From NCBI GenBank assembly GCA_021851735.1, contig JAJZCD010000002.1:1-64000 (forward strand): a stretch of 64,000 nucleotides of DNA, written 5' to 3'. This document shows positions 8,424 through 42,970 of the stretch, piece by piece (positions within the stretch are counted from its first letter, which is position 1; each line of letters starts with the position of its first letter). The notes under the pieces are model-generated. The model did no database searches and was not told the origin of the DNA. It saw nothing but the letters and a program-made list of their open reading frames with translations. A program made the position numbers and the translations under genes. The DNA comes from a bacterium. GTDB lineage: Bacteria > Patescibacteriota > Saccharimonadia > Saccharimonadales > UBA4665.

Positions 8424-8500
8424 TGGTGGGCGATGGAGGACTTGAACCACCGACCTCGTCATTATCAGTGACGCGCTCTAACCAGCTGAGCTAATCGCCC
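8424..8500 (-). tRNA. tRNA-Ile(GAT), CCA encoded
   Basis: Reverse complement GGGCGATTAGCTCAGCTGGTTAGAGCGCGTCACTGATAATGACGAGGTCGGTGGTTCAAGTCCTCCATCGCCCACCA gives a cloverleaf with a GAT anticodon. Confidence 0.95.
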
Positions 8501-8676
8501 ACAAGCTAGAATCCGATAATTGTTAAAATGTCTTTATTCTTTTGGTGGAGACGCAGTGCCGTAAAGCGCTACGCCCCCATGTAGCCACCCAAGATGGACT
8601 GTGCAATATTTATGGCGCTGGTGACGTAATAAAAGTTGCAGCCCACATCCTTCCTTAGGCTTTGAGAAAGGCAGTT

Positions 8677-8753
8677 TGGTGGAGCAACGGGGACTTGAAC
8701 CCCGGACCTCCTGCTTGCAAAGCAGGCGCTCTGGCCAACTGAGCTATTGCCCC
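8677..8753 (-). tRNA. tRNA-Ala(TGC), CCA encoded
   Basis: Reverse complement GGGGCAATAGCTCAGTTGGCCAGAGCGCCTGCTTTGCAAGCAGGAGGTCCGGGGTTCAAGTCCCCGTTGCTCCACCA; G3:U70 present. Confidence 0.95.
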
Positions 8754-14039: not shown

Positions 14040-17660
<3,621 letters not shown>

Positions 17661-18032
17661 GATGTAATGAGACAAACCCATTTAGGGTTTCTCATCGCTC
17701 CGTGCGAAAATGTTTTGGCATTTAGCTAATTTGGAGCTTCTTTCTCCGGTTGGAGAGAGAAGAGTTGTATACTCATGGGTGTGGCTCATTACAGGTGTAT
17801 TTGACTAGTTGTTGGTGTATATCACCCAAAATTACAGTGTTTAACTGAACAGATGCTCAGTGTACAATGTAAATATAGCAAAAGTTTGTTTTTGAGCTAT
17901 GAACTTTTTTAATCTGACTAATATCGTACGGTGCGTGCGGACATCGAGTAGAAACATGGTTGGACGTCATATCTAACTGCTTAACGTGCAGACAGCGAGC
18001 AGTTACTAATAACGCGAAACGATATTTCCGCT

Positions 18033-18331: not shown

Positions 18332-18595
18332 ATGCAACGAGACGCATGCAGCCATTGTCAGTTGGCCCGAAAGCGATACGCTCAGCGTATTACATATACT
18401 TTAGGGTGTGTAACGGCTACTGCTTTGGTGGCAGGATTGACCGTAGTTATGTTAAGGACTGTCGGTGACTGGTGGAATGGATTATTAGTTGCTGCATTGT
18501 ATTTGTGGATTTTTGTGCCAGTGGCGTGGTGTGTGCTCATAGCCAATCTATTCTCCTTACTACTACACGCAATGTGTACTCACGATGCGCGGTGA
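18332..18595 (+). CDS. Putative small membrane protein (start uncertain)
   Basis: Two hydrophobic segments (VTATALVAGLTVVML; LLVAALYLWIFVPVAWCVLIANLFSLLL). Confidence 0.35.
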   Translation: MQRDACSHCQLARKRYAQRITYTLGCVTATALVAGLTVVMLRTVGDWWNGLLVAALYLWIFVPVAWCVLIANLFSLLLHAMCTHDAR

Positions 18596-18656
18596 CAGCT
18601 ATTGTAATGCTGTGAACTGAGTAATTGAGATAATTCGTTGTTTATAGTAAAAAGCA

Positions 18657-18685
18657 TTGACATTAGCGTAATAGAGTGTTATCAT
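18657..18685 (+). promoter_or_regulatory. Consensus promoter TTGACA-17-TATCAT upstream of the KGG-type gene
   Basis: TTGACA 18657-18662, TATCAT 18680-18685. Confidence 0.65.
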
Positions 18686-18707
18686 AAGCATAATTCGAAA
18701 AGATAAG

Positions 18708-39130: not shown

Positions 39131-39196
39131 GTATCTCTAAACCTGTGCTTGAATTGCAGAGGGTTGCCAAACATGACAAGAGGCTATACTATAAAG

Positions 39197-39478
39197 TGAG
39201 AAATGCGTTGTGGTGGTTACACCACACGAGCGGCTATCAACCGTGCAGTCGAGATAATTTTGCCTAGAAGGTAAGATGAACTGGAGCGCAGCGGGAAGAA
39301 CCGGCTAATGGTCTAGTAATGTAAAGCCAATAGCCTCAGTAGACCCCGACGGATCGACCCGTAAGATCACACAAATCAAGCGCCATAAGAATCACTTCTT
39401 TTGGAATCTGGATGGTACCGTCCGGTCTGCAAAGCAGTACTGGATTCCAGAGCCTAACAGAAGTGATTTTTATTAATA
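39197..39478 (+). promoter_or_regulatory. T-box-like leader upstream of CYTH-ileS
   Basis: CAGTAGACCCCGACGGATCGACCCGT segment, GGATGGTACCGTCC (T-box TGGTACCG), candidate ATC specifier at 39236-39238, terminator AATCACTTCT...AGAAGTGATTTTTATT, located before ileS. Confidence 0.72.
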
Positions 39479-39491
39479 AAAGGAGAATGAT

Positions 39492-40013
39492 GTGGTAGAG
39501 CTTGAACTCGAAAAAACCTATCTACTCAAAGAATTGCCAGAAGGGCTAGAGGGGAATAGATCAGAGATTATTAGTGATGCTTTCGTGCCCATTAGTGCTA
39601 AGCACCCAGTGCTGCGTTTGCGCCACCGAGGCAACAACTATGAGTTAACTAAAAAGCAACCGATAGATGATGCTGACCCGTCTCGTCAAAATGAGCACAC
39701 GATTCAGCTTACTCCCGAAGAAGCTGCTGCGTTTGATGCAGTATCTGCTAAGCGCTTCAGTAAACGTTGCTACTACTGCACTGTCGATGGGCATCAGGCG
39801 GAAGTTGACATATATCTGGGTGATCTAGCAGGGCTGGCTGTGGTCGATTTTGAATTTATGACTGATGAGGCTTTGCAATCATTCACTATGCCGAGGATTT
39901 GCCTAGCTGATATTACGCAAGAGGAGGCGTTAGCTGGTAAAAAGTATGTGGATCTACAATCTGTACTTCAAAAATATAACTATAAACCACTATTTCTTCA
40001 GGAGACAAACTAA
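39492..40013 (+). CDS. CYTH domain protein (triphosphate tunnel metalloenzyme-like), GTG start
   Basis: VELELEKTYLLKELP (ExExK-like), LRLRHRGNNYELTKKQP, AEVDIYLGDLAGLAVVDFEF. Confidence 0.8.
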   Translation: MVELELEKTYLLKELPEGLEGNRSEIISDAFVPISAKHPVLRLRHRGNNYELTKKQPIDDADPSRQNEHTIQLTPEEAAAFDAVSAKRFSKRCYYCTVDGHQAEVDIYLGDLAGLAVVDFEFMTDEALQSFTMPRICLADITQEEALAGKKYVDLQSVLQKYNYKPLFLQETN

Positions 40014-42970
40014 TGAAATTCACTGCGGGGAACCGTCGTAAGGCCACCGAGTACGAAAAAGACTTGGTGCAGCAATGGAAAAAGAATAAGACATTTGAGA
40101 AGTCTATCGAGCAGCGTCCAAAAAGTAATTCGTACGTATTTTACGATGGGCCGCCGTTTATTACTGGCATACCACATCACGGTACGTTACTGAGTAGCAT
40201 CGCAAAAGATGTGGTGCCACGTTATTGGACTATGAAGGGAAAACGCGTGGAACGTGTCTGGGGCTGGGACTGTCATGGCTTGCCAGCCGAGGTTTTTACT
40301 GAGAAGAAGTTGGGTATCCAAGACCGTCGTGATATTGGTACTAAGATTACCCTTGAGGAATATATCACAACTTGTCGCGACAATATGGTACAGACGGGTA
40401 GCATGTGGGAGGACACCATTGATCGGATTGGCCGATGGGTTAATTTCAAGGGTGCCTATCGTACTATGGACAAGGATTACATGGAGAGTGTCTGGTGGGC
40501 ATTCAAGCAATTATACGACAAAGGTAAGGTCTACGAGGGTGAAAAAGTACTGTTGTATTGTACACGTGACGCTACACCTCTCAGTAAGGCTGAAGTCACA
40601 ATGGATGCAGGCAGCTACAAAGATGTCAACGACCCGAGTGTGTATGTAAAATTCAAGCTGAAAGACGAGGAAAAATATCTGCTTGCCTGGACAACGACAC
40701 CGTGGACATTGCCAGCGAATACCGCTACGGCCGTCCATAAAGATGCTGATTATAGCGAGGTGAAGTTAGAAGACGGTAGTGTCGTGATAGTGGCAACCAA
40801 GCTGATGGAAAGAGTACTTACTGATGAAAGACATAAACCGATACCGTTTACATTGGTAGGCACACTGAAGGGTGCTGATTTGGTGGGTAAAAGCTACGAG
40901 CCGCTTTTTGAAGACCGTGGTGAAAAAGCCCATAAAGTATGGCATGCAGATTATGTGAGTATGGAAGAAGGAACTGGCATTGTGCACTTGGCCCCAGCTT
41001 ATGGCGAGGAAGACTATGAACTAAGCAAGGAGAGCGGCTTCCCATTTGTGAGCATTATCGACGCCAATGGCCTATATACTGAAGGTGAGTGGCAAGGCCA
41101 GAATGTGTGGGATGCCAATAAGCCTATAGCCAAGCACCTACATGCTCGTGGTGTGGTCTGGAAAATAGAGTATGTGGTGCACAGTTACCCACACTGCTAT
41201 CGTTGCGGTACGCGTCTGATGTACCGAGCGCATCCCAGCTGGTTTATTGACATTAACGGCCAACGCCAGCTGATGCTCAATGAAAATGAGCATGTAAGCT
41301 GGTTCCCTAAGCATCTCAAGGAAGGACGCTTCCGCAAGACAGTTGAGAGTGCTCCAGATTGGAATGTTAGTCGTGATCGATTTTGGGCAACGGCTATGCC
41401 GGTATGGAAAGGTACCGACAAACAAGGCAACGAGCACGTCAAAGTCATAGGTAGCTATGCGGAATTGAAGGAATTGAGTGGCGTTGAGCTTGAAGACTAC
41501 CATCGCCCATGGGTCGATGACGTTGAGTTCGATCTAGACGGTGTGCATTATAAGCGTATCGACAAGGTACTTGATTGTTGGTTCGAGAGTGGTAGCATGC
41601 CATTTGCACAGTTTCATTATCCGTTCGAGAACGTTGATAAATTTGAGGCGAACTATCCAGGCGATTACATCGTGGAATATGTAGGGCAAGTCCGTGCATG
41701 GTTTTACTATGTGCATGCCGTGAATGTGGCACTATTCGGTAAGCATGCCTTTAAACACGTGAATGTTACTGGTAACCTGGCTGGGAACGACGGCCGTAAG
41801 ATGAGCAAGCTTTATGGCAACTATACTGACCCGAATGAGCTGATGGATCTATATAGTGCCGATGCGCTGAGATTCCTACTTATGAGTTCTCCTCTCATGA
41901 ATGGAGAAGATTTTGCGCTACAGGATAAGGAAGTCCTGGATGTACAGCGTAAGCTAGCTATGATCTGGAATATGTACGACTTTTTTACGATGTATGCGTC
42001 CGTTGATGGTTGGGAGTGGAATGGTAAGCACGAAGACCCGTCTGCAAGTGTCGTAAATCCCCTCGACAAGTGGGTGCTGTCGCGATTACACCAGCTGCAA
42101 GATCATGTGACTGAAAAGATGGATGCTTATGATATACCCGGTGCAATGGAACCAATCTTAGGCTTCATAGATGACGCCAGTAACTGGTATGTGCGTCGTT
42201 CGCGGCGTCGTTTTTGGCGATCTCGAAATGAACAAAGCATAAATATCAATGAAGAGGATTCTCAGGCAGACCAAGATAAAGATGATGCGTACCGGACGTT
42301 ACATTATGTGCTGGTACATCTGAGTATGATTTTGGCACCCTTTGTGCCATTTTTGGCTGAAGAGCTCTATTGCAAGCTCACTGGTGGCGAAAGCGTACAT
42401 TTGTTAGACTGGCCGAAGGCTGGCGCTATCGACGAAGATGTCATAGCAAAAATGACGGTCGTGCGCACGATAATCAATGAAGGTCTGTCACGAAGAGCGA
42501 GCAATAAACTTAAGGTAAGACAACCGCTTGCTGCTGTCAGCCTGCGCGGTAAGACTGTGAATTTCTTATCTCATGAAGCGGCGCACTCGAGTTTCTACGC
42601 TAATATACTGCTCGAGGAACTCAATGTTAAACGGGTAGATTTGCACCCTGGCGACGAGCCATTATTAGTTGAGCTGGATACCGATATTACGCCAGAACTG
42701 CAGCGTGAGGGTCTAATGCGAGAATTAGTACGACAGGTACAGTCCGCACGTAAGGCTGCAGGACTAAATGTTGATGATCGTATAATGCTCAGTGTTGTTT
42801 CTACTGAAAGAGATGTGTTACATACACTAGAGACGTATGGAGAGACTCTTAAGTCCGAGACGCTCGCCGTCGACTTAAACAAGGACCTACCATTGGAAAA
42901 AGCCTATACTGTAAGTTTCACCATTGATGGCTACCAGATAGAGGTCTCTCTCGCTAAAGCGGTATCTTAA
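40013..42970 (+). CDS. ileS: Isoleucyl-tRNA synthetase
   Basis: DGPPFITGIPHHGTLLSSIAKD (HIGH-like), WGWDCHGLPAE, DGRKMSKLYGNYTDP (KMSKS). Confidence 0.96.
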   Translation: MKFTAGNRRKATEYEKDLVQQWKKNKTFEKSIEQRPKSNSYVFYDGPPFITGIPHHGTLLSSIAKDVVPRYWTMKGKRVERVWGWDCHGLPAEVFTEKKLGIQDRRDIGTKITLEEYITTCRDNMVQTGSMWEDTIDRIGRWVNFKGAYRTMDKDYMESVWWAFKQLYDKGKVYEGEKVLLYCTRDATPLSKAEVTMDAGSYKDVNDPSVYVKFKLKDEEKYLLAWTTTPWTLPANTATAVHKDADYSEVKLEDGSVVIVATKLMERVLTDERHKPIPFTLVGTLKGADLVGKSYEPLFEDRGEKAHKVWHADYVSMEEGTGIVHLAPAYGEEDYELSKESGFPFVSIIDANGLYTEGEWQGQNVWDANKPIAKHLHARGVVWKIEYVVHSYPHCYRCGTRLMYRAHPSWFIDINGQRQLMLNENEHVSWFPKHLKEGRFRKTVESAPDWNVSRDRFWATAMPVWKGTDKQGNEHVKVIGSYAELKELSGVELEDYHRPWVDDVEFDLDGVHYKRIDKVLDCWFESGSMPFAQFHYPFENVDKFEANYPGDYIVEYVGQVRAWFYYVHAVNVALFGKHAFKHVNVTGNLAGNDGRKMSKLYGNYTDPNELMDLYSADALRFLLMSSPLMNGEDFALQDKEVLDVQRKLAMIWNMYDFFTMYASVDGWEWNGKHEDPSASVVNPLDKWVLSRLHQLQDHVTEKMDAYDIPGAMEPILGFIDDASNWYVRRSRRRFWRSRNEQSININEEDSQADQDKDDAYRTLHYVLVHLSMILAPFVPFLAEELYCKLTGGESVHLLDWPKAGAIDEDVIAKMTVVRTIINEGLSRRASNKLKVRQPLAAVSLRGKTVNFLSHEAAHSSFYANILLEELNVKRVDLHPGDEPLLVELDTDITPELQREGLMRELVRQVQSARKAAGLNVDDRIMLSVVSTERDVLHTLETYGETLKSETLAVDLNKDLPLEKAYTVSFTIDGYQIEVSLAKAVS

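Follow-up and report, generated by a model that had tools for sequence, protein, structure and literature searches.

An ultrashort T-box-type leader with predicted transcriptional control of a CYTH-like gene and ileS in Saccharibacteria

The 64,000-nt stretch of a Saccharibacteria genome analysed here (the window) contains, before a gene for a CYTH-like protein and ileS, a leader some 280 nt long with a hairpin and U-rich tract at its end (Table 1). The first-pass annotation had placed a T-box-like riboswitch before ileS, and the identity of this gene is certain from its TIGR00392 score above cutoff. The 173-aa product of the first gene was named by neither Pfam nor NCBIfam. Its CYTH label thus had no Pfam match behind it, but a fold model of low confidence (pLDDT 60) resembled CYTH/triphosphate-tunnel enzymes (NE1496, Foldseek E = 7e-8), and judged by this model the label is likely correct. 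The tRNA-Ile(GAU) gene lies together with tRNA-Ala(UGC) (8424-8753, minus strand) between the 16S and 23S rRNA genes, on the opposite strand to them. At 3.6 kb, the 23S rRNA match (14041-17661) is longer than its 2.9-kb model, pointing to insertions or an intron. A consensus scan found 3 promoter-like sites, with 2.4 expected by chance. The minimum free energy (MFE) of the 284-nt leader was -100.1 kcal/mol, against -70.9 kcal/mol for shuffles (z = -5.7), and every motif named in the first-pass annotation was found where it had been placed.

Table 1. Elements of the leader, the genes downstream and the predicted tRNA ligand (window coordinates).
Feature	Position	Strand	Basis or detail
Promoter-like site TTGCCA-17 nt-TACTAT	39164-39192	+	Consensus scan; weak alone
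Basal Stem I helix, 5′ strand UGC	39204-39206	+	Pairs with GCA 39288-39290; by inspection
Hairpin inserted within basal Stem I region	about 39209-39226	+	
Specifier hairpin, GA-rich flanks (putative K-turn)	39228-39246	+	4 bp, 7-nt apical loop CUAUCAA
AUC specifier (Ile)	39236-39238	+	Next base A39239; conserved among ileS leaders
Hairpin insertion of this lineage between specifier hairpin and Stem II	39245-39287	+	Gap in most relatives (33-leader alignment)
Stem II	39291-39348	+	S-turn GAA 39298-39300 opposite AGUAGA 39338-39343
AGTAGACCCC	39338-39347	+	Sequence
CGACGG..CCCGT	39347-39362	+	Sequence
Stem IIA/B pseudoknot-like element CGACGGAUCGACCCGUAAGAUC	39347-39368	+	IIA pairing; IIB swapped-control comparison
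RRRxG (AAGCG), Stem III, AA	39378-39382, 39383-39404, 39405-39406	+	Alignment, folding
CTGGA-TGGTACC-GTCC	39408-39423	+	Sequence
Antiterminator	39408-39450	+	A1 39408-39412/39446-39450; bulge UGGUACC 39413-39419; A2 39420-39445, first pair G-U
Intrinsic terminator	39390-39474	+	AATCACTTCT 39390-39399 with AGAAGTGATT 39459-39468, then U-rich TTTATT; antiterminator nested inside
Shine-Dalgarno AAGGAG	39480-39485	+	3′ of and outside terminator hairpin
CYTH-like (triphosphate tunnel) protein, 173 aa, first operon gene	39492-40013	+	ORF; Foldseek
ileS	40013-42970	+	NCBIfam TIGR00392, 781 bits, cutoff 621
tRNA-Ile(GAU), A73, encoded CCA	8424-8500	-	Predicted T-box ligand

The structure was assessed in an alignment of 33 ileS leaders with a 23-pair structure, in which 96.9% of cells were paired. 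Covariation among relatives, which had been suggested as a check on the T-box reading, was present: 18 of the 23 pairs changed on both sides, and the covariation score was 0.555, against 0.269 for shuffled and at most 0.104 for slid controls. All four pairs covaried both in the specifier hairpin (99.2% paired) and in the basal helix of Stem II. GAA was invariant in the S-turn and AGUAGA was conserved in most leaders; a GAA/AGUAGA S-turn has been described for the ileS T-box of N. farcinica (PMC7583486). The antiterminator helices A1 and A2 were paired in 100% and 99.2% of cells, respectively, with compensatory changes and covariation at 7 of 9 pairs, and the first A2 pair was G-U in 21 of the 33 leaders. 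The conserved AAGYG-Stem III-GAA agrees with the 5′-RRRxG-Stem III-AA-3′ motif, which is a T-box feature (PMC7583486). Stem IIA was paired in 83.8% of cells, and Stem IIB reached at least 3 bp in 93% of own pairings versus 62% of swapped controls. A putative K-turn at the base of Stem I, with GA/GA flanks and a 3-bp helix, was recognised mostly by inspection; the helix, here UGC/GCA, reads UCC/GGA, AAC/GUU or GGC/GCC in relatives, and under a strict proximity test its complement was located nearby for 35 of the 76 leaders, with insertions obscuring the remainder. A long-range helix between GCGUU (39205-39209) and AAGCG (39378-39382) in the single-sequence MFE structure was dropped, as AAGYG is the RRRxG element and in the alignment the 5′ UGC is matched by GCA.

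The Rfam T-box model RF00230 matched neither the window nor the leader, even at E ≤ 10. According to the first-pass annotation, the T-box reading would be refuted if such a match were missing and relatives had no conserved specifier or bulge. The match is indeed missing here, but hundreds of relatives retain the specifier, the S-turn, the bulge and the helices, with covariation. Similar leaders were found by blastn in 19 of 94 family genomes, and RF00230 gave matches in 26 of the 94 (best E = 3e-11), several of them at the blastn loci. Homologous leaders matched RF00230 at 52 bits (E = 7e-11), and no leader tested reached the gathering score of 93 bits. At gathering, Rfam reported no T-box in 19 Saccharibacteria-type ileS loci and the thrS locus, nor in 20 loci from outside the order. 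On contig C48 of the window's genome (G000), RF00230 gave a weak match (E = 1.3); other weak matches (G034:C8, G040:C1:103837, G057:C1 and G041:C33) look like chance, several lying within coding sequence. In one relative, the whole RF00230 model was aligned in order, namely Stem I base, Stem II, AGUA, IIA/B, AAGUG, Stem III and UGGUACCG, with 76 distal Stem I positions of the model replaced by a 7-nt loop. Covariance model R2, from which the three leaders of the window's genus were left out, retrieved the leader from the 64-kb window at 96.9 bits (E = 1.4e-20) as the sole match to E ≤ 10, and the full model R1 gave one credible match in the whole genome, the next having E = 3.4.

The candidate Ile specifier of the first-pass annotation was borne out, with AUC present in 33 of 33 family leaders and in all 76 readable leaders of ileS genes from named Saccharibacteria and of related ileS genes. 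The bulge UGGU is complementary to the A73-CCA end of tRNA-Ile(GAU) from the same genome. A second T-box-like leader of this genome, located before thrS (contig C11, about 18,560-18,700; locus L056, about 2060-2260; RF00230 E = 0.003), has ACC in the specifier hairpin; its bulge (at about 18,661) is UGGA, which matches the U73 carried by all three tRNA-Thr of the genome. It appears as a very small T-box with its own terminator and no evident Stem II S-turn. Read from their sequences, the putative codon and the discriminator change together between the Ile and Thr leaders, as expected of T-boxes. In a relative, the leader before hisG has the bulge UGGG, and the tRNA-His of the window's genome has C73. 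T-box-like leaders of Saccharibacteria were also observed before hisG (bulge UGGG), proS and thrS (L036, L049, L041).

The leader is order-wide and present across the phylum, and is no one-off in a reduced genome. At a threshold of E ≤ 0.001 per genome, for which a rough calibration gives less than one expected false match, R1 matched 263 of 392 genomes within the order, in 121 of 156 genera; in a sample across the phylum it matched 131 of 384 genomes, of which about 99 belong to other classes. We inspected 41 loci outside the order (40 among the stronger R1 matches and L167), assigning genes one position further downstream (L240, L241) by reading the protein sequence. ileS lay downstream in 25 of the 41, with AUC and once behind a histidine-phosphatase gene; valS followed in 12, with GUC and once behind NAD(P)HX dehydratase; non-discriminating aspS followed in three, with AAC or GAC; and the remaining locus had aspS with an ambiguous specifier. 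Since R1 was trained on AUC only, the agreement of GUC, AAC and GAC with these genes is independent evidence. Among Saccharibacteria, the small unrelated genes between T-box and ileS vary (by eye, cupin-, acetyltransferase-, CYTH- and phosphatase-like; L088, L093, L094, L102, L137, L140, L144, L154-L156, L162, L165 and others), so the T-box would control changing passenger genes. Some ileS proteins have an inserted histidine-phosphatase (phosphoglycerate-mutase-like) domain (L239, L248, L240), and in L240 the T-box and ileS are additionally separated by a stand-alone histidine-phosphatase gene.

Two competing folds were computed for the 3′ part of the leader. With RNA up to the 3′ arm of the terminator, the MFE structure was Stem III with A1/bulge/A2 (-26.8 kcal/mol); with the 3′ arm included, it was the terminator (-43.3 kcal/mol), in which A1/A2 and the bulge were kept and Stem III alone was replaced. 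The terminator hairpin claimed by the first-pass annotation has its arms in place and a U-rich tract after the 3′ arm; a terminator scan reported none at the leader, because its 8-nt loop limit excludes a hairpin enclosing the antiterminator. Of 77 Saccharibacteria leaders, 73 have a 3′ arm that pairs with Stem III; among 69 distinct arms, this pairing extended over 9.4 nt with the leader's own Stem III versus 6.6 nt after swapping. As the computed terminator fold replaces Stem III alone, we propose a switch between Stem III and the terminator. In this model, the anticodon of tRNA-Ile(GAU) would pair with the AUC that the short Stem I presents in its apical loop, a pairing that the Stem II S-turn would clamp, and the ACCA end of uncharged tRNA would pair with UGGU of the antiterminator bulge. 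Docked in this way, uncharged tRNA may lock Stem III and the antiterminator via the bulge and the RRRxG purines, so that RNA polymerase would read into the operon. The 3′ end of charged tRNA would be unable to dock, and without docking the 3′ arm (39459-39468) would invade Stem III at its loop and 3′ strand (39390-39399) to form the terminator. With the antiterminator retained within the terminator structure, it is harder to see than for a textbook T-box how charging would alter termination.

The 5′ arm of a textbook T-box terminator consists of the 3′ strands of A1 and A2 (PMC7583486), and a terminator competing with A1/A2, rather than with Stem III, is the most serious alternative to this model. 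GGAATC (39403-39408) can pair with GATTCC (39443-39448) in the window in competition with A1, and among 42 T-boxes outside the order the terminator arm pairs with antiterminator sequence in 22 and with Stem III in 15. In the full-length MFE structure, however, A1/A2 remain formed, and in nearly all Saccharibacteria leaders the 3′ arm falls on Stem III instead of A1/A2, so we regard the textbook switch as unlikely here.

Control mainly at translation or mRNA stability, with a secondary role for the terminator, is suggested by the nearest known architecture, as ultrashort Stem I, Stem II S-turn and IIA/B are those of the translational ileS T-box of Actinobacteria (PMC7583486, PMC1262725). Here the Shine-Dalgarno lies downstream of and outside the terminator hairpin, which argues against its sequestration, and a hairpin with U-tract and a 3′ arm pairing with Stem III recurs in the same 73 of 77 leaders; this mode of action is therefore quite improbable. 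An ordinary structured leader, such as a peptide attenuator or a protein-bound autoregulatory element resembling a T-box by chance, would fit the missing Rfam match, but covariation is order-wide and specifier-gene and bulge-discriminator matches extend across several amino acids, so this explanation is nearly excluded. Considering these results, the T-box reading of the first-pass annotation, with tRNA-Ile as ligand and the ileS operon as target, is supported by the relatives, and the leader is very probably an ultrashort-Stem-I T-box riboregulator that controls transcription of the CYTH-ileS operon. With less assurance, we favour a wider reading in which Saccharibacteria have a T-box expression platform of their own, with tRNA locking Stem III against a terminator that leaves the antiterminator unaltered inside it, and ultrashort T-boxes form a Patescibacteria-wide regulon (Ile, Val, Thr, Asp/Asn, Pro, His).

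Patescibacteria are tiny, reduced, mostly uncultured and often host-dependent bacteria, and to our knowledge little has been learned about their gene regulation. The occurrence of a putative sensor of tRNA charging in most of the Saccharibacteria sampled points to direct monitoring of amino acid supply. The results widen the range of T-boxes by a large group that the Rfam threshold does not pick up, and the apparent Stem III switch bears on how tRNA charging is converted into termination. These leaders also offer short natural T-boxes for structural work and possibly a native regulated element for genetics in Saccharibacteria and Patescibacteria. A search for literature joining T-boxes with Saccharibacteria, Patescibacteria, CPR or TM7 found nothing relevant, in a coverage that leaves out most subscription journals and hence gives no proof of novelty.

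In Actinobacteria, translational control by ultrashort ileS T-boxes has been described (PMC1262725, PMC7583486). The TBDB class II model covers T-boxes with truncated Stem I, a type shared by the Saccharibacteria leader; its sequences were sought in Actinobacteria reference genomes, together with truncated class I matches, and the text of the TBDB paper makes no mention of Candidatus taxa (PMC7778990). By published description, the ultrashort or class II ileS T-boxes of Mycobacterium and Nocardia share with the present leader AUC, a short Stem I, the GAA/AGUAGA S-turn of Stem II, a IIA/B element (here pseudoknot-like), the UGGN bulge and the ileS target, and such likeness may reflect shared ancestry or transfer from actinobacterial hosts. 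Unlike them, the Saccharibacteria leader holds its specifier in the 7-nt apical loop of a hairpin Stem I; and whereas the actinobacterial leaders sequester the Shine-Dalgarno (PMC1262725, PMC7583486), it has an intrinsic terminator with a U-tract. With the class I, transcriptional T-boxes of RF00230, it shares Stem II, the pseudoknot-like IIA/B, Stem III and antiterminator in order, as well as terminator control. It differs from them in scores below 93 bits and in the 7 nt that stand for 76 positions of Stem I, by which the interdigitated T-loop module for the tRNA elbow is absent; the RF00230-aligned relative lacks the long Stem I with its elbow-binding double T-loop, which is not required in the ultrashort class. 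It also differs from class I in that its terminator is built on Stem III.
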